In this document: in pieces, positions 645 to 7,585 of the stretch | How the letters are laid out: every line of letters begins with the position of its first letter | Position numbering within the stretch: position 1 is the first letter of the stretch | Made by a program: the position numbers and the translations under genes | The notes under the pieces: model-generated | Databases searched by the model: none | What the model was told of the DNA's origin: nothing | The model's input: only the letters and a program-made list of their open reading frames with translations | Virus record (IMG/VR): IMGVR_UViG_3300001533_000167 | Coordinates: 1 to 22,633 of that record | DNA length: 22,633 nt | Direction: 5' to 3' (one strand) | Source of the DNA: a virus

Positions 645-972
645 GAACCTGCGAATGCTTGAAAACGAAATTGATAAGATCGCAACACAGCCGAACCCGC
701 TTGACAGCACCATTCCCAGAGAGCCGGCGCTGCTTAGAATAAGGCCCGTATTGCAAATTGTGGGGGACCGGGACAGGGCGAACGGCGACCTCAAAGCGAT
801 AGGGTCGAGAGTGGCTTATCTCGCACGTCGTCTCCGCTGCAAACCGTATCCGGTTGACCCAACTACCGATGCGCCTTACAAGCGCGGTATCTACCTCTCT
901 GACGGCGACGCGCCTTTCGACTTGATTGAGGTACTTAACAAGCTGCTCGATTACCTCGGGTGCCCGGAGTGA
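607..972 (+). CDS. Hypothetical protein between small and large terminase genes
   Basis: This 121-residue protein is not one I recognise. It has a Gln/Asn/Thr-containing N-terminus, a central basic helix with the stretch VAYLARRLRCKPYP, and an acidic C-terminal helix (about 100-121). No membrane segment or signal peptide is visible. The ATG at 607 has an AAGGA sequence about eight bases upstream and lies inside the preceding gene; an alternative in-frame ATG at 655 has a weaker ribosome site. It overlaps the large terminase start, so all three genes look translationally coupled. Its place suggests a packaging or early head-assembly accessory role, but nothing in the sequence shows a function. 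Confidence 0.65.
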   Translation: MPIQPTQTKSLSENLRMLENEIDKIATQPNPLDSTIPREPALLRIRPVLQIVGDRDRANGDLKAIGSRVAYLARRLRCKPYPVDPTTDAPYKRGIYLSDGDAPFDLIEVLNKLLDYLGCPE

Positions 973-2234
973 TTAAGCAAATTTACGAGCCTTCGCCCAA
1001 AATGGTATTCTGTGCGCAGAATGCGCATAGGGCAAAGTTCCGCATATTCGACGGGCCTGTACGCTCGGGGAAAACCTTCACGGCGAATTTCATTTCTTTA
1101 CAAGAGATACAAGCACTGCCTTCGTGCAATGTGCTCGTATCGGGTTATTCAATTTCCACAGCCGCCCGTAACGTACTCGCATCGTGGAAAGAGAGTATAG
1201 ACCCAAATAATAGGGGAATCTTCAAATCGAACCGGGATGCTAAAGATGACTACGTCACGATCAACTGGAGAGGTTTACGGGATAAGAAATTTTACATTCG
1301 TGGCGCTGCGAAGGAATCGGATTACAAGTCGATACAGGGAGCGACGTTCGGGTATTGGCTATGTGACGAATTCACACGGCATCATGAGTCCTTTACCGAT
1401 ATGGCAATGACGCGGATGTCACCACCGTATGCGAAAGGCATTTTTACCACCAATGCCGAGTCCCCTTACCACTATGTCAAGAAGCGCTTTATTGACAATG
1501 AGGAACTGCACCAAAAATTACTTTGGATGCGGTTCCAGTTCCAGCTAAATGACAACCCCTCGCTATCGCCCGACTATGTGGCGATGCTGGAGGCAACGTA
1601 CACAGGAATCTTTTACAAGCGTTTCATACTCAATGAGTGGTGTGTGGCTGAGGGTGTCATTTACGATATGTTCAGCGATTCGCACATTGTCAGCCAGAAC
1701 CCGCAAGCGAAGTTCCACGTTGTCGGCATCGACTACGGCACCTCAAACCCCACATGCTTCATACTCTTTGGTGTCAATCCCGGAGGTAAACCTTGCATAT
1801 GGGCAGAGCGGGAATACTACTACGATAGCTCAGTTGACGGACACCAGAAGACCGATGAGGAATACGCGGATGAATTTGTCAAGTTCTTGAGGGGAGTACG
1901 GCCTGCTGTGATTTACCCAGACCCGAGTGCGGCATCGTTCATACAAGCGCTGAAGCGCAAGGGGTATGCGAGTATACGGCCAGCGGACAACTCGGTGATT
2001 GACGGGATAAGAACGCAAGCCCGTTTGTTGACCTCCGGTATGTACAAAGTGAACAGCGCATGTAAGCAAACGATAAAAGACTACTCTGTTTATTCATGGG
2101 ACAGGGCAGCGAGCGCGAAGGGTGACGACAAGCCGATAAAGCAAAATGACCATACAAAGGATGCCGAGCGCTATGTGCTCAATACAAGATACGGCAATGA
2201 TGGCACCGATCTAAATACTCTTGCGAAATGGTAG
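960..2234 (+). CDS. terL: Phage terminase large subunit (ATPase and nuclease)
   Basis: This is the packaging motor, which uses ATP to pump DNA through the portal and cuts the concatemer. The N-terminal ATPase has a Walker A motif GPVRSGKT at residues 32-39, a Walker B-like GYWLCDE at 131-137 with catalytic Glu137, and a coupling motif TTN at about 163-165. The C-terminal RNase H-like nuclease begins at VVGIDYGTSNP with Asp258, and further acidic positions lie in IYPDPSAASF and in KDAERYVLN near the end, which is typical of the PBSX-type terminase family. At 424 residues it is full length. The start shown is GTG 960; GTG 969 is equally plausible because it forms a GTGA overlap with the upstream stop. 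It precedes the portal gene, as is usual. Confidence 0.95.
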   Translation: MPGVIKQIYEPSPKMVFCAQNAHRAKFRIFDGPVRSGKTFTANFISLQEIQALPSCNVLVSGYSISTAARNVLASWKESIDPNNRGIFKSNRDAKDDYVTINWRGLRDKKFYIRGAAKESDYKSIQGATFGYWLCDEFTRHHESFTDMAMTRMSPPYAKGIFTTNAESPYHYVKKRFIDNEELHQKLLWMRFQFQLNDNPSLSPDYVAMLEATYTGIFYKRFILNEWCVAEGVIYDMFSDSHIVSQNPQAKFHVVGIDYGTSNPTCFILFGVNPGGKPCIWAEREYYYDSSVDGHQKTDEEYADEFVKFLRGVRPAVIYPDPSAASFIQALKRKGYASIRPADNSVIDGIRTQARLLTSGMYKVNSACKQTIKDYSVYSWDRAASAKGDDKPIKQNDHTKDAERYVLNTRYGNDGTDLNTLAKW

Positions 2235-3529
2235 GGACTATGAAAAGTAAACGAGCTGACGGGTGGATGAACCTGCTCACGGGTTTGGGCGTGAAGGGGG
2301 CTGACAAGCGCAAGTCAACTACCTTCGCAGGCGCAAAGACGTTGAACCAGCAAACGCTCACCGACCTTTACACGGGGGACGGATTTGCGCAACGTATCGT
2401 GAACCTCGTGGCAAAGGATATGGTTCGTGAGTGGTTCAAGGTGCATGGCGATGATGAAGGTTTGCTGCTGCAGGGGCTTGACACACTAAGAGCGAAGAAT
2501 CATTTCGCTCGCGCTCTCCGTTGGTCCCGCCTGTACGGTGGTTCCGCAATGGTGATGGGAATTGATGATGGGGGGGAACTGCAGGACGAGCTTCGCGAGG
2601 AGTCAATTCGTAATGTGGAATTCCTGCGTGTTTACAACCGGCACCAGCTTTCACCCCAGAGCACGTATACCTCGCCCGAACATAAAAGTTACGGCAAGCC
2701 CGAGACCTATATGGTGTCGTCCATAAGCGGTTCGCCTTACGTTGTGCATGAGTCAAGGATGTTGAAGTTCGACGGCGTTGATGTGCCGGATGACGTGAGG
2801 GCACACAATAACGGATGGGGCAACTCTGTGCTGCAATCGACATACGACCGAATTCGTGGTCTAGGGGAGGCATACGCGAATGTGGAGAGCATTATAAATG
2901 AGTTCGTTATAGGTACGTTGACGGTTCGGAATTTGGCCGAGCTACTCGCATCCGGTCAAGAATCGTTGGTACATGCGCGGCTCAACCAAATTGATCTGTC
3001 GAAACACATTATAAATACTGTGCTGCTTGACGAAAATGAGAGGTTCGAGCGCGTCACCTCCACCGTGTCCGGGCTCGACGGTCTTATTGACAAATTGGAA
3101 AAATCGCTTTCGGCTGTAACTGGTATCCCGGTGACGTTGCTCATGGGAGAATCCCCCGCAGGCTTACAGGCTACGGGCGCAAGCGATATCCGGCTGTACT
3201 ACGACTCAGTAGCAGCGGATCAGGAGGTTTCTTTACAGCCGCAACTCGAAACGATGCTTCGTATCCTTATGCTGGCAAAGCAGGGGCCGTTCGGCGGCAA
3301 GGAGCTTGACAGTTGGACAATTGAGTTCAGTCCGCTTTGGCAGCCGACTGAGAAAGAGGTTGCGGAGACGAAGAAGATCGTTGCGGACGCTGATCATATT
3401 TACCTGCTTGACGGAGTGGTGCTGCCGGAGGAGATCGCGCAGTCGCGCTTCGGAGGTGGCCAGTACAGCGCCGATACGCGGTTGATGTACGACCGCACAC
3501 GACCGAGCATTGACAGGGGCGAGCAGTGA
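2228..3529 (+). CDS. Portal protein, DUF1073 family
   Basis: The portal forms the dodecameric ring at one capsid vertex through which DNA enters and to which the tail attaches. The 433-residue protein matches the DUF1073 family of phage portals: an early LYTGDGFAQRIVNLVAKDMV helix, the RWSRLYGGSAMVMGI core at about residues 96-110, and the diagnostic MGESPAGLQATGASDIRLYY segment near 305-325. It lies directly after the large terminase and before a head morphogenesis gene, the standard portal position. ATG 2228 overlaps the terminase stop but lacks a ribosome site. ATG 2240, preceded by GTAGGG, would shorten the protein by four residues and may be the real start. Confidence 0.92.
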   Translation: MVGTMKSKRADGWMNLLTGLGVKGADKRKSTTFAGAKTLNQQTLTDLYTGDGFAQRIVNLVAKDMVREWFKVHGDDEGLLLQGLDTLRAKNHFARALRWSRLYGGSAMVMGIDDGGELQDELREESIRNVEFLRVYNRHQLSPQSTYTSPEHKSYGKPETYMVSSISGSPYVVHESRMLKFDGVDVPDDVRAHNNGWGNSVLQSTYDRIRGLGEAYANVESIINEFVIGTLTVRNLAELLASGQESLVHARLNQIDLSKHIINTVLLDENERFERVTSTVSGLDGLIDKLEKSLSAVTGIPVTLLMGESPAGLQATGASDIRLYYDSVAADQEVSLQPQLETMLRILMLAKQGPFGGKELDSWTIEFSPLWQPTEKEVAETKKIVADADHIYLLDGVVLPEEIAQSRFGGGQYSADTRLMYDRTRPSIDRGEQ

Positions 3530-4467
3530 ATATAAAGGAGCTGCTGAATCAGCCGGGTGGTATACGTGCGCCCAGAGTACGCGGGAGGGTGAATCTGGCG
3601 TACCCGAGCGCTATTGAGGCAAAGTATTTCTCGCACCTCGTGGATTACGTGAAGAGGCTGCGAAAGGTGCTTGACGAGCAGACAGGAATATTTTTGCCGT
3701 TGATAGAGAGCGAGGTTGCTGCTGAGAAGACCATTCGTCAAGACGCATGGCCGCAGGATGTGATGCGGATGCTGAGTATTATCCGTAAAGAGTTCGACGT
3801 GATGAAACGAGCCGTAGGGCCGTTGATTGAGGGCGTTGCTGACGAGGTGAGCGAATTTGAGTTGAGGCAATGGCAAAGCACGATGCAGAAAATTGTCGGC
3901 ATTGAGTTGTATGCCGCTGAACCTTGGCTGCGGGACGAGCTGCAGGCATTTACAATTCAGAACGTGGAGCTGATCCACAAGTTGACGGATGACTTAGCTA
4001 GTGACGTTGGTACAATTGTCAATTCGGGATTTCGCGCAGGTAAACGCCATGAGACAATTCGCAACGAGCTGCTCGGCACGAACCTCGAGGGGCTCGATCA
4101 TGTACCTGCATTGCGCAAAGTGGAGAACAGGGCAAAACTCATTGCGCGTGATCAGGTAGCGAAACTCAATTCAGAACTAAACCATCTTCGGCAGGAACAG
4201 GTAGGACTCGAGCTTTACGTATGGCGCACCTCGCTTGACGAGCGTGTGCGTGCTTCGCATGATCTGCTTGACGGAATGTATTGTAAATGGGACGATGCGA
4301 TTGTTTACTCACAGGATGGCGTGAACTGGAAACCTCGCACTTCTTCGATGTTCCATGGGCATCCGGGCGAGGACTACCAATGCAGATGTGTGGCGGAGCC
4401 AGTATTTGAGATACCCGAGCGGCAAACACGAAGAGGGCACGAAGAGGGAGGGGAGCGTGAGCAGTAG
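3526..4467 (+). CDS. Phage head morphogenesis protein, SPP1 gp7 / Mu F-like
   Basis: This 313-residue minor head protein belongs to the family that binds the portal inside the procapsid. The N-terminal half is helical and charged. The C-terminal half has the family layout: RAKLIARDQVAKLNSELN at about 204-221, then YVWRTSLDERVRASHDLLDG near 231-250, and the cysteine-containing end HPGEDYQCRCVAEPVF. The GTG start at 3526 makes a GTGA overlap with the portal stop, and an AGGGGC stretch upstream can serve as ribosome site, so it is probably coupled to portal translation. The final ten or so residues are charged and overlap the next small gene. Confidence 0.88.
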   Translation: MNIKELLNQPGGIRAPRVRGRVNLAYPSAIEAKYFSHLVDYVKRLRKVLDEQTGIFLPLIESEVAAEKTIRQDAWPQDVMRMLSIIRKEFDVMKRAVGPLIEGVADEVSEFELRQWQSTMQKIVGIELYAAEPWLRDELQAFTIQNVELIHKLTDDLASDVGTIVNSGFRAGKRHETIRNELLGTNLEGLDHVPALRKVENRAKLIARDQVAKLNSELNHLRQEQVGLELYVWRTSLDERVRASHDLLDGMYCKWDDAIVYSQDGVNWKPRTSSMFHGHPGEDYQCRCVAEPVFEIPERQTRRGHEEGGEREQ

Positions 4468-4639
4468 CGTTGATATTGCAAAGCTGCTTGACGATAAGTT
4501 AAGCGAGTATCTTGTGAGCGAGTTCACGGGACAAATATCATTTCATCTTCATTGTCGTAAAGGCGGCGTTGGGAGGATTTTCCTGGAAGTCAAGCAGAAT
4601 TTTGGCAAGGATGATTTCACCGATAAGTGCGAAGATTGA
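4457..4639 (+). CDS. Small hypothetical protein (60 aa)
   Basis: I do not recognise this protein. A GTG at 4457 is preceded at good distance by a purine-rich ribosome site (GGGAGGGG), and the frame runs 60 codons to the stop at 4639. The product has an acidic N-terminal helix (SSVDIAKLLDDKLSEYL) and a C-terminal part that looks like two beta strands. No membrane segment is seen. It overlaps the head morphogenesis gene by 11 bases and is the last gene before the large non-coding spacer, so it may mark the end of the first transcription unit. The frame is also open upstream of 4457, but that part is a shadow of the previous gene. Confidence 0.55.
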   Translation: MSSSVDIAKLLDDKLSEYLVSEFTGQISFHLHCRKGGVGRIFLEVKQNFGKDDFTDKCED

Positions 4640-4663
4640 CATCCACTTGGTATAGAAATTTTC

Positions 4664-4692
4664 TTGACTTTGGCATTTTTATTTAGTATACT
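4664..4692 (+). promoter_or_regulatory. Strong sigma70-type promoter in the head-gene spacer
   Basis: TTGACT at 4664-4669 and TATACT at 4687-4692 each match the sigma70 consensus in five of six positions and are exactly 17 bases apart. The flanks are AT-rich. The predicted start is an A near 4698-4699. It lies in the only long non-coding gap of the window, just after a stop codon at 4639, and points toward the hairpins and T-tract that end near 4828, as well as toward the head genes. Confidence 0.75.
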
Positions 4693-4698
4693 TTAATA

Positions 4699-4828
4699 AC
4701 ATCGGCTATCTGTGCGCCTTAACTGTTACGCACTGACCCGAGCGAGTATTGAGCACATTCGTCATTTTTCCCCGCTGTCCTCTGCCGGCGAGGTTTTCCT
4801 TCGAATGCTCACTCGCTCGGGTTTTTTT
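4699..4828 (+). ncRNA. Candidate structured small RNA or attenuated leader, about 130 nt
   Basis: A promoter with a start near 4699 and an intrinsic-terminator-like end near 4828 delimit a transcript of about 130 nt with no convincing gene inside. Two hairpins are visible: GTGCG at 4712-4716 with CGCAC at 4729-4733, and a long stem 4736-4822. The second has 12 perfect pairs, a three-base bulge, five pairs (4751-4755 with 4806-4810), a two-base bulge, and four pairs (4758-4761 with 4802-4805). Inside its loop a smaller hairpin, CCTC with GAGG around a TGCCGGC loop, is possible. It resembles neither a tRNA nor an RNA family I know. It could be a phage small RNA or the 5' leader of the head operon. 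Confidence 0.5.
4736..4828 (+). terminator. Rho-independent terminator-like hairpin upstream of the protease gene
   Basis: A perfect 12-base inverted repeat (ACCCGAGCGAGT at 4736-4747, complement at 4811-4822) closes a stem that is followed directly by seven T residues at 4822-4828. The 63-base interior is unusually long but itself partly paired, so the closing stem can still form. The ribosome site of the next gene (GGAGG at 4835-4839) lies just past the T-run, so the element could act as an attenuator between the promoter and the head genes. Confidence 0.65.
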
Positions 4829-4847
4829 ATTTGTGGAGGCTTTATAC

Positions 4848-6041
4848 ATGGGAATTCAGTCCAATCTTCGTTTCGATTACATGCCTGTTCGCTCTCGTAA
4901 AGTAACGAGGACGGACGAAGGCTATCTCTCCGGTAGTGCCGCTATTGCGAAGGTGGGAGTGCTTACGTACCGGTTGACGGATGGCACGACACGGAAAGAA
5001 TTCGTTCCGCCCGAGACCCTGTTCAACGAAGACAGCTTCGCCTCACTTCGTCTGAAACCCATCACCAGTGCCCACCCTCCAGAGAAATTACTTGATGCAC
5101 GAAGCGTCAAGCGACGGTATGTCGGCACAATAGGCGAGAATGTTATCCGTGAAGATGATGCCCTCGTCACTTCACTTATTGTAATGGACAGCGAAGCGAT
5201 TAAAGGCGTGGAGAATGGGCAGCATCAATTATCACCCGGATACGTATGCGAACTGGAAATGATCCCCGGCGAGCACAACGGCGAGCGCTACGACGCGGTT
5301 CAGGTCAAGCGCTCCTACAACCATGTAGCGCTCGTTGACAGTGCAAGAGGCGGAGCGGATTTGAAATTGCACCTTGACGGCATGGACGACAATGTGCGCC
5401 TTGACGGATTTGAGCAGATTAGCGAATTACTTAACGACAATAAAAACCCACAACACAATCAAAGGAGTGGTAGAATGCTGAAAAAGATTTCACTTGACGG
5501 AATTGAGTACGAGGCAGCGCCGGAAGTCTTGCTGCGTCTTGACAAGATGGAGAAGGAACTTGTCGCGTCGGAAGAAGCGCTTGCGACCGTGACCGCTGAG
5601 GTTGAGACGGTGAAAGCCGACCGAGATACTATCCAGACGAAGTTAGATGAGGCGAATGCACGCGACATCATTGGTGAGGCGAAGGCCATTGCAGCGGCTC
5701 GCACTAAGCTCGAACGCGAAGCCTCGCCGTACTTGACGCCTGAGCAATTGACGAAACTGGATTCGATGACAGATCAGGAAGTACGCAACGCCGTGATTCT
5801 GAAAGCCTTCCCTAAAGCGGAAGCGCAGTTGAAGGACGCGAGCGATATCTACTTGACAGCTCGCTACGACAGCGCTGTAGAGATCTTGGCCGAGATCCCG
5901 AGCGACGCTTTCGCATCGCAGCGCAAAGCGGTTAACGGTGGTGTGCGGACTGACAAGCGCGACGAAGTCGATCAGGCGGCAGCGCGTAAAAAGATGGAAG
6001 AGGACGCGAAGAACGCGTACGTTTCGGCGTCCGCGAAGTAA
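4848..6041 (+). CDS. DUF2213 prohead protease fused to scaffold domain
   Basis: This 397-residue protein combines a DUF2213-type capsid maturation protease with a C-terminal scaffold region. The protease part (about 1-175) has the family block GYVCELEMIPGEHNGERYD followed by SYNHVALVDSARGGAD, in which His159 and Ser165 are the likely catalytic His and Ser, as in related prohead proteases. Residues 210-397 are highly charged and helical with coiled-coil character, as expected of a scaffold. The ATG at 4848 has GGAGG eight bases upstream. The frame is open for 33 more codons upstream, but that part crosses the terminator hairpin and lacks a ribosome site. It precedes cement and capsid genes, the normal order. 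Confidence 0.85.
   Translation: MGIQSNLRFDYMPVRSRKVTRTDEGYLSGSAAIAKVGVLTYRLTDGTTRKEFVPPETLFNEDSFASLRLKPITSAHPPEKLLDARSVKRRYVGTIGENVIREDDALVTSLIVMDSEAIKGVENGQHQLSPGYVCELEMIPGEHNGERYDAVQVKRSYNHVALVDSARGGADLKLHLDGMDDNVRLDGFEQISELLNDNKNPQHNQRSGRMLKKISLDGIEYEAAPEVLLRLDKMEKELVASEEALATVTAEVETVKADRDTIQTKLDEANARDIIGEAKAIAAARTKLEREASPYLTPEQLTKLDSMTDQEVRNAVILKAFPKAEAQLKDASDIYLTARYDSAVEILAEIPSDAFASQRKAVNGGVRTDKRDEVDQAAARKKMEEDAKNAYVSASAK
5475..6041 (+). CDS. Nested in-frame scaffold protein (internal start)
   Basis: Inside the protease gene, an AAAGGAG at 5461-5467 stands seven bases before an in-frame ATG at 5475. This is one of the best ribosome sites in the window, although it lies within coding sequence. 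Starting there gives a 188-residue, charged, largely helical protein (MLKKISLDG... to ...ASAK) with a likely coiled coil over its first 80 residues, equal to the scaffold domain alone. Lambda C/Nu3 and Mu I/Z show the same arrangement, where the nested product is the main scaffold and the long form is the protease. That it is made here is an inference from the ribosome site and these precedents. Confidence 0.7.
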   Translation: MLKKISLDGIEYEAAPEVLLRLDKMEKELVASEEALATVTAEVETVKADRDTIQTKLDEANARDIIGEAKAIAAARTKLEREASPYLTPEQLTKLDSMTDQEVRNAVILKAFPKAEAQLKDASDIYLTARYDSAVEILAEIPSDAFASQRKAVNGGVRTDKRDEVDQAAARKKMEEDAKNAYVSASAK

Positions 6042-6084
6042 ACAGAACAGACAACAATTTCAAAATTTCTCAGGAGGATAGGTA

Positions 6085-6585
6085 ATGGCACAAACTTCTT
6101 ACGACAGAGATCAGGGGCTTGCTTTTGCGGGAATGAAAGCCGATGCCCGATTCGATGAGGTGGTTTCTTATCAGGCTGAAGGCGCAATTGCTTTCGGTCT
6201 CGGCGTTGTGCGCGGCACTGACAAAGAGCGGCAGGTGATTGTACCGAATGGCACTACTACCGGCATGGCGATGCAGGGCCTCGCGTTGTACACTCACAAG
6301 GAGCCCGTTGCGGGTGCAGCACGTTACGAGGACAAGGAAATGGTTTCTGTTCTTCGTAAAGGACGCGTATGGGTTCCGGTGGTCGGAACGATCACGACTG
6401 CGGATGCCCCCCGCATTATTGACACGGGCACGGATGCTGGAAAATTTACCGCTGCGACTACCGACTCGACGGCTATCGCTGGTCTACAGTTCGAGTCATC
6501 CTATGATGCAACGACCTCGGACTTAGCGCTGGCATTGCTTGACGTCAATCTGCCGCAGCAACATTGTAACAACGACGACGAATAA
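6085..6585 (+). CDS. Capsid cement (decoration) protein, Gp24-like
   Basis: The 166-residue protein resembles the structural cement protein Gp24 family of phages with DUF2184 capsids: an early IAFGLGVVRGTDKERQV segment, the GLALYTHKE block, and MVSVLRKGRVWVPV near the middle, all beta-rich. Such proteins bind the outside of the shell and stabilise it. The ATG at 6085 is preceded by an ideal CAGGAGG, and the 43-base A/T-rich leader between it and the protease gene suggests high expression. It sits immediately before the major capsid gene, the usual place. The C-terminus ends in a hydrophilic CNNDDE tail. Confidence 0.8.
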   Translation: MAQTSYDRDQGLAFAGMKADARFDEVVSYQAEGAIAFGLGVVRGTDKERQVIVPNGTTTGMAMQGLALYTHKEPVAGAARYEDKEMVSVLRKGRVWVPVVGTITTADAPRIIDTGTDAGKFTAATTDSTAIAGLQFESSYDATTSDLALALLDVNLPQQHCNNDDE

Positions 6586-6616
6586 CCTTTACAAAAAGTA
6601 ACAAGGAGTTTTTAAC

Positions 6617-7585
6617 ATGGCAGAAAGAATCGTAGCAGTAAACCTTGACGCCAACGAGAGCGCGTTCTTTGCGCGGGAGTTGGAGTTTGTCAAGGCACGT
6701 ACTTATGACAAACGGTATCCGGAGTACAAAGCGCAAGCGCTGATTCCTGTTTCCACAGAAGCCGGTGCGGGTGCTGAGTCCATTACCTATCGTCAATTCG
6801 ATAGCGTGGGCCTGATGAAGTTGATCGCGAACTATGCCGACGACCTCCCCCGTGCGGATGTTTACGGAGCGGAATTCACTTCCCCCGTTCGCTCTCTCGG
6901 CGGATCGTATGGGTGGAACCTGCAGGAAATTCGCAACGGTCAAATGTCCGGTCGCCCTCTATCGACTCGTAAAGCGGAAGCCGCACGGCTCGCTTACGAG
7001 CAGACTGTGAACCGGCTCGCTTGGTATGCTCGCGCTGCCGATGGTAAGAGCTCCGGTCTTAACGGTTTTCTTCATAATGCGAATATCACCAAGAAAACCG
7101 CTCCGAACAATGCAGGTGATACTTCCAGAAAATGGGTTGACAAAACGGCCGACGAGATCCTGCTCGACCTCAATAATGGTGTTAACGACATCATTGAATT
7201 GACAAAGGGCGTGGAGATCCCCGATACCGTCTTGCTGCCGATTAAGCAGTATACGCATATTGCCACTACTCCACGGAGTGCGACGAGCGATACTACTATT
7301 CTGGAGTTCTTCCTGCGCAACAATCCGAATATCACTTCGGTTGAATGGGTGAACGAGTTGAAAGATGTTTCCCCCAAACCGAGCGATCCTACGGGTTCGG
7401 GCACCTGCGATTGTATGATCGTTTACAAGCGCGATCCGATAAAACTCACCCTCGAGCTGCCGCAGATGTTCGAGCAGCTCCCGGTGCAGGAGCGCGGTTT
7501 GGAGTACATCGTTCCGACACATGCGCGTATCGGTGGCGTGATAGTTTACTATCCGCTGTCAATCGCCATTGTGGAAGAAATCTAA
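6617..7585 (+). CDS. Major capsid protein, DUF2184 family
   Basis: This 322-residue protein matches the DUF2184 major capsid family (HK97 fold). The N-terminal motif YPEYKAQALIPVSTEAG is followed by ESITYRQFDSVGLMKLI, and the core RSLGGSYGWNLQEIRNGQMS at about residues 97-116 leads into the long helix RKAEAARLAYEQTVNRLAWY. The C-terminal VPTHARIGGVIVYYPLSIA is also typical. The ATG at 6617 has AAGGAG ten bases upstream. Position after the cement gene and the family length both fit. It is followed by a 95-base spacer holding hairpins rather than another overlapping gene. Confidence 0.93.
   Translation: MAERIVAVNLDANESAFFARELEFVKARTYDKRYPEYKAQALIPVSTEAGAGAESITYRQFDSVGLMKLIANYADDLPRADVYGAEFTSPVRSLGGSYGWNLQEIRNGQMSGRPLSTRKAEAARLAYEQTVNRLAWYARAADGKSSGLNGFLHNANITKKTAPNNAGDTSRKWVDKTADEILLDLNNGVNDIIELTKGVEIPDTVLLPIKQYTHIATTPRSATSDTTILEFFLRNNPNITSVEWVNELKDVSPKPSDPTGSGTCDCMIVYKRDPIKLTLELPQMFEQLPVQERGLEYIVPTHARIGGVIVYYPLSIAIVEEI

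Follow-up and report, generated by a model that had tools for sequence, protein, structure and literature searches.

Does the short transcription unit embedded in the head gene block of this phage encode an independent RNA, or does it serve the genes around it? The window analyzed here, an IMG/VR record of 22,633 nucleotides (22.6 kb), carries the head and tail gene block of an uncultured tailed phage on its plus strand. The original prediction described a possible small RNA gene between the portal and head-shell genes, which might regulate mRNAs, act in packaging, or be an attenuator. The feature is real and recurrent, and the most fitting name for it is a candidate attenuator leader that precedes phage capsid genes.

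A compact transcription unit between the packaging and capsid genes

The unit occupies the gap between a small ORF and the DUF2213 gene, with packaging genes on its 5' side and capsid genes on its 3' side (Table 1). A head gene does follow it, the DUF2213 protease/scaffold gene starting at 4848, but the preceding gene is not the portal: a MuF-like gene and the small ORF lie in between. The near-consensus boxes first noticed were found at the proposed spacing, with TTGACT at 4664-4669, a 17-nt spacer, and TATACT at 4687-4692. This is the best-scoring promoter site within positions 3000-7000, matching 10 of 12 consensus positions. Promoter-like sites are commoner in that interval than in shuffled sequences (9 versus 2.5 expected), perhaps due to common CTT-GAC codon pairs, and consensus matches alone therefore carry little weight there.

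Table 1. Positions of the genes and RNA features discussed (window coordinates unless a locus is named)
Feature	Position	Strand	Basis
Terminase	960-2234	+	ORF list, Pfam/PHROG scans
Portal	2228-3529	+	ORF list, Pfam/PHROG scans
MuF-like gene	3526-4467	+	ORF list, Pfam/PHROG scans
Small ORF, 60 aa	4457-4639	+	Directly 5' of promoter
Sigma70-type promoter, TTGACT-17-TATACT	4664-4692	+	10/12 consensus; TTGACA-17-TATTAT at the same place in L168
Predicted leader transcript, ~130 nt, putative start	4699-4828	+	Promoter and terminator positions
Upstream hairpin, inner stem 4709-4716/4729-4736, loop CCTTAACTGTTA 4717-4728	4702-4741	+	L168 comparison
Putative intrinsic terminator, T7 4822-4828 closing a long stem (4735-4823) that has a large inner loop	4735-4828	+	Fold
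Ribosome-binding site GGAGG of DUF2213, 6 nt past T-run	4835-4839	+	Sequence
DUF2213 head protease/scaffold, first gene behind leader	4848-6041	+	Pfam PF09979, 1.8e-35; phrog_530, 2.8e-78
Cement	6085-6585	+	ORF list, Pfam/PHROG scans
Major capsid	6617-7585	+	ORF list, Pfam/PHROG scans
B-group hairpins	L191:4860-4990, L199:7583-7720, L195:4310-4400	n/a	Tandem in L191, L199; last overlaps terminator

Both predicted hairpins and the T-run were located, at 4712-4733, 4735-4823, and 4822-4828. The predicted transcript (4699-4830) folds at -49.4 kcal/mol (z -5.0) and the terminator region (4735-4830) at -43.3 kcal/mol (z -7.5), values reached by no shuffle. The core of the upstream hairpin consists of GTGCG (4712-4716) and CGCAC (4729-4733) enclosing the loop, and it is much less stable than the terminator. 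Apart from upstream extensions of DUF2213, a single ORF of at least 50 aa starts inside the transcript (GTG, 4712-4900, 62 aa). It has no ribosome-binding site, crosses the terminator, and was judged non-coding by inspection, in agreement with the initial view that the unit holds no convincing gene. That view also held that no RNA family fits, and a search of Rfam, in a release that may lack RAT models, likewise matched no family.

The terminator is coupled to the start of the capsid genes

The T-run ends at 4828, leaving no room for a promoter before the DUF2213 start codon. Polymerase reaching the capsid genes must therefore cross the terminator wherever it started, near 4699 or further upstream. 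Of 26 units curated by eye, 23 have the start of a gene of at least 80 codons no more than 45 nt from the T-run, compared with 38 of 96 other terminators (40%) and 39% of random places.

This coupling bears on the main rival explanation, a trans-acting small RNA whose loop would serve as a seed for phage or host mRNAs and whose terminator tail would be a chaperone site. Such a gene would fit a complete unit with, judged by its signals, its own promoter and a strong terminator, and it would fit the conserved, single-stranded 12-nt loop; in the window both hairpins can also form together in one fold. In some relatives, L188 and L204 among them, further genes lie between the terminator and DUF2213. 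An independent small RNA gene would nevertheless have no need of a terminator abutting a gene start, and loops differ wholly between lineages. Pairing of the loop with phage mRNAs was at chance level, and no convincing target was found in the window or in L168. We regard the small RNA reading as possible, if rather unlikely.

A further rival is an ordinary unregulated boundary, in which a booster promoter of low strength, combined with incomplete termination, would do no more than set the ratio of packaging to capsid transcripts. Phage gene blocks often carry such signals. A booster promoter would, however, be expected behind the terminator and not before it, and this explanation, which we hold to be very improbable, leaves the loop conservation and compensating stem changes described below without a reason.

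The unit recurs at the same place in related phages

Scans with single proteins gave no relatives, and alignment-based scans of IMG/VR and GTDB contigs were needed; these brought the set to more than 300 loci. A strict detector (promoter of at least 9/12, terminator hairpin of -13 kcal/mol or lower, the two 45-170 nt apart) was applied to 46 non-redundant relatives, and in 15 of them the MuF-DUF2213 gap contained a unit. The window's own locus belongs to the 46 but was missed by the detector, probably because the detector folds only 75 nt and the window's stem exceeds that length. On the same strand, 16 units were detected in 27.5 kb of gap sequence versus 6 in 459.7 kb elsewhere, an approximately 45-fold higher density; the opposite strand had 18 in 487 kb. 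More than twenty related phages have such a unit at this position. The expectation that such spacers are rare in structural gene blocks was thus not borne out for this phage group, whereas the description of a compact, structured transcription unit was upheld by the same position and layout in many relatives, a conserved loop, and compensating stem changes.

Cultured phages are distant, with capsid proteins at most 41.5% identical. No promoter and terminator unit was seen in the inspected gaps of six cultured relatives, and a distant blastn search of three units against cultured phages gave nothing above chance. In Aminobacter phage Erebus, a terminator is located 90 nt ahead of DUF2213.

Several other features were observed at these loci. 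Insertions seem to accumulate in the MuF-DUF2213 gap: L226, L232, L240, and L245 have long insertions after the MuF gene whose translations appear glycosyltransferase-like by eye. A tRNA gene lies inside the same gap on the opposite strand in L196 (9168-9239, minus strand; Rfam RF00005, 52.7 bits). L179, a 404-kb contig from a record titled Rufibacter sediminis, has a promoter of sigma70 consensus in a Bacteroidota contig. Other promoter motifs are usual in Bacteroidota; a misassigned contig or a phage with a different host could account for this.

Hairpins with conserved loops and changing stems

The nearest relative, L168/L008, encodes a DUF2213 protein 66% identical and a capsid protein 79% identical to those of the window. 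At the same place it has a unit of the same layout: a promoter, the hairpin GCTTTTGCG[CCTTTATTGTTA]CGCGAAAGC (loop in brackets), a terminator, and the DUF2213 start. Between the two, the 12-nt loop is identical at 10 of 12 positions while 3 of 9 stem pairs are changed on both sides, a comparison that is suggestive only, as it involves two sequences and 53 of 500 shuffles were as good. The L168 terminator, AAAGCCCGTA..TACGGGCTTTTTTTT, is different and shorter. The stem 4736-4822, which had been put forward for a covariation check, is the window's terminator, conserved neither in sequence nor in length (38 nt in the relative). Scanning for exact copies of its arm returned no matches. Conservation and covariation are found instead in the upstream hairpin. 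The loop pattern GCGCCTTNANTGTTACGC occurred in 8 contigs; among those inspected, no promoter-terminator unit was found besides that of the known relative.

The promoter spacer is identical at only 5 of 16 positions between the window and L168. Since the spacer is not conserved but the loop is, the RNA and not the promoter DNA seems to be recognized. This speaks against a further rival, processive antitermination of the lambda/21 Q or AlpA type, in which a DNA-binding phage protein would load onto polymerase at the promoter and enable it to read through the terminator that follows, with the short RNA as the default product. The order of promoter, short transcript, terminator, and late genes is the same (PMC6606751, PMC9371919). 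Pause elements resembling a -10 box were not enriched among the first transcribed bases, however (6 of 26 units, 4.0 expected), and the mechanism has no need of covarying hairpins; we therefore consider it quite unlikely.

The RNA sequence differs between lineages, and each subgroup has a conserved-loop hairpin of its own. The B group comprises L191 and L199, with two copies each, and L195, with one. Its 19-nt loop, TAGCGCGATAATATCAACC, is nearly invariant, 6 of 7 stem pairs are changed on both sides, and the covariation score exceeded those of all 500 shuffles and all slid versions. In the A group (L109, L178, L216, and L179; GGY-A-CNY[AAAGAAC]RNG-GCC) all pairs are kept, although with one double change only, and 140 of 500 shuffles as good, this group is weak alone. 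L225 and L229 appear by eye to form a further subgroup, with a poor automatic alignment.

In the A group, the B group, and L168, the hairpin shares bases with the 5' arm of the terminator. The GCC of the A group doubles as the terminator base; in the B group the second copy (L191, L199) or single copy (L195) has its 3' arm in common with the terminator 5' arm, which makes hairpin and terminator mutually exclusive. Across the 26 units, pairing between leader and terminator 5' arm is stronger than for shuffled leaders (mean z -0.60), and the Stouffer z of -3.05 overstates the evidence because some units are related. In the window the overlap amounts to 2 nt, to which a weak outer helix may be added. 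This helix, TCGG 4702-4705 paired with CCGA 4738-4741, appears only in the fold of a partial transcript and could there take bases from the terminator arm. Leader-arm pairing in the window is at chance (z -0.02 versus shuffled leaders).

A model for the leader

Three features, namely the coupling of terminator and gene start, a promoter before the terminator, and a hairpin that reaches the terminator base and keeps its loop while its stem changes, are what one would expect of a leader choosing between termination and read-through. We thus favor, at about even chances, a cis-acting transcription-attenuator leader between the packaging and capsid genes. Of the options first listed this is the one we prefer, with the reservation that in the window itself the overlap is weak, the pairing at chance, and the terminator far more stable than the hairpin.

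In such a leader, the strong host-type promoter would drive synthesis of the RNA between the terminase, portal, and MuF genes and the protease/scaffold, cement, and capsid genes. By default polymerase would stop at the terminator and release an RNA of ~130 nt. A trans-acting factor, most likely a phage protein, would bind the conserved loop of the upstream hairpin. The bound hairpin would then be stabilized and hold back the base of the terminator 5' arm, so that the regulated switch would run toward read-through into the capsid genes.

A small protein encoded next to the leader

Directly 5' of the RNA unit is encoded a protein family of ~60 aa, consisting of a helix and then an FTGxI...GGIG beta-hairpin. 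The AlphaFold model of the window's small ORF has this helix and beta-hairpin (pLDDT 80.6). The protein had no relative in Pfam, PHROG, NCBIfam, or the PDB, and a fold search gave no significant match. Homologues were found in L168, L187, L188, L190, L268, L271, L196, L270, L236, L273, and others; in most relatives that carry the unit, a homologue is encoded immediately 5' of the promoter. With a profile built from 22 members, a unit was present at 23 of 27 loci with the small ORF versus 12 of 124 without it, and, among gaps of at least 200 nt, at 23 of 27 versus 12 of 57 (p = 3e-8). These counts are qualified by a profile drawn largely from loci with a unit, by a relaxed detector that lets chance units through, and by shared ancestry among the loci.

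The ~60-residue protein is a candidate partner of the leader. It is doubtful, if conceivable, that it acts as an RNA-binding antiterminator, or as an autoregulator, of a new type, reading a fast-evolving, lineage-specific loop and timing capsid synthesis relative to the packaging genes.

Comparison with known systems

In tailed phages, late promoters and processive antitermination are the usual explanation for how capsid and packaging genes within one block are timed against each other. If the model holds, a recurrent, lineage-specific RNA switch at the packaging/capsid boundary, with a candidate partner encoded adjacently, would introduce another level of control, along with RNA elements absent from Rfam and perhaps a small new family of RNA-binding proteins. 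A search of the open literature, which did not cover subscription journals, found no earlier report of such a leader.

The phi29 pRNA is likewise a structured phage RNA, one with a packaging role. A packaging RNA of this type was rejected because the RNA here varies freely, differing completely and beyond alignment between lineages that keep homologous portal and packaging genes; this leaves packaging, among the functions originally suggested, unsupported. Base pairing with the 16S rRNA 3' end was also considered and dropped. HK022 put, also a structured phage RNA with a role in cis, suppresses termination without a protein (PMC9378689), but it differs in that no gene-coupled terminator follows it.

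Lambdoid PR'/tR'/Q and AlpA systems resemble the unit in their strong promoter, short terminated RNA, and late genes behind the terminator. Q-type late leaders are marked by a binding site between -35 and -10 and by a -10-like pause element in the first transcribed bases. The unit here lies inside the head gene block, however, and a Q/AlpA-like system is without support, as neither the spacer nor a pause element is conserved. IsrK of prophage Gifsy-1 is a short phage RNA, and transcription at times continues past its terminator into the genes behind it (PMC4825925). It is comparable as one locus acting as both small RNA and leader, but it controls an antiterminator gene and not capsid genes.

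The parallels for the proposed mechanism are leaders with a hairpin that overlaps a terminator. In RAT elements, recognized by the BglG/SacY/LicT family, a protein-bound hairpin of 29-30 nt partly overlaps the 5' part of an intrinsic terminator before the regulated gene (PMC3369931). Hairpins of 20-33 nt here adjoin or overlap a terminator, but the loop sequences are other, the genes encode capsid and not sugar functions, and the overlap in the window is weak. No BglG/SacY-type (PTS-type) protein was among the ten proteins scanned with Pfam in the window, which is a fragment. The B group, with two tandem hairpins of the same loop of which the second overlaps the terminator, resembles ANTAR leaders; those have two hexaloop hairpins with A1 and G4, whereas the B-group loops are 19 nt, and in the window there is just one hairpin, whose loop is 12 nt long and begins with C. 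The window thus differs from both classes in the size and sequence of the loop and in hairpin number, and by analogy the best reading is that its leader would work like RAT or ANTAR leaders while being a member of neither.
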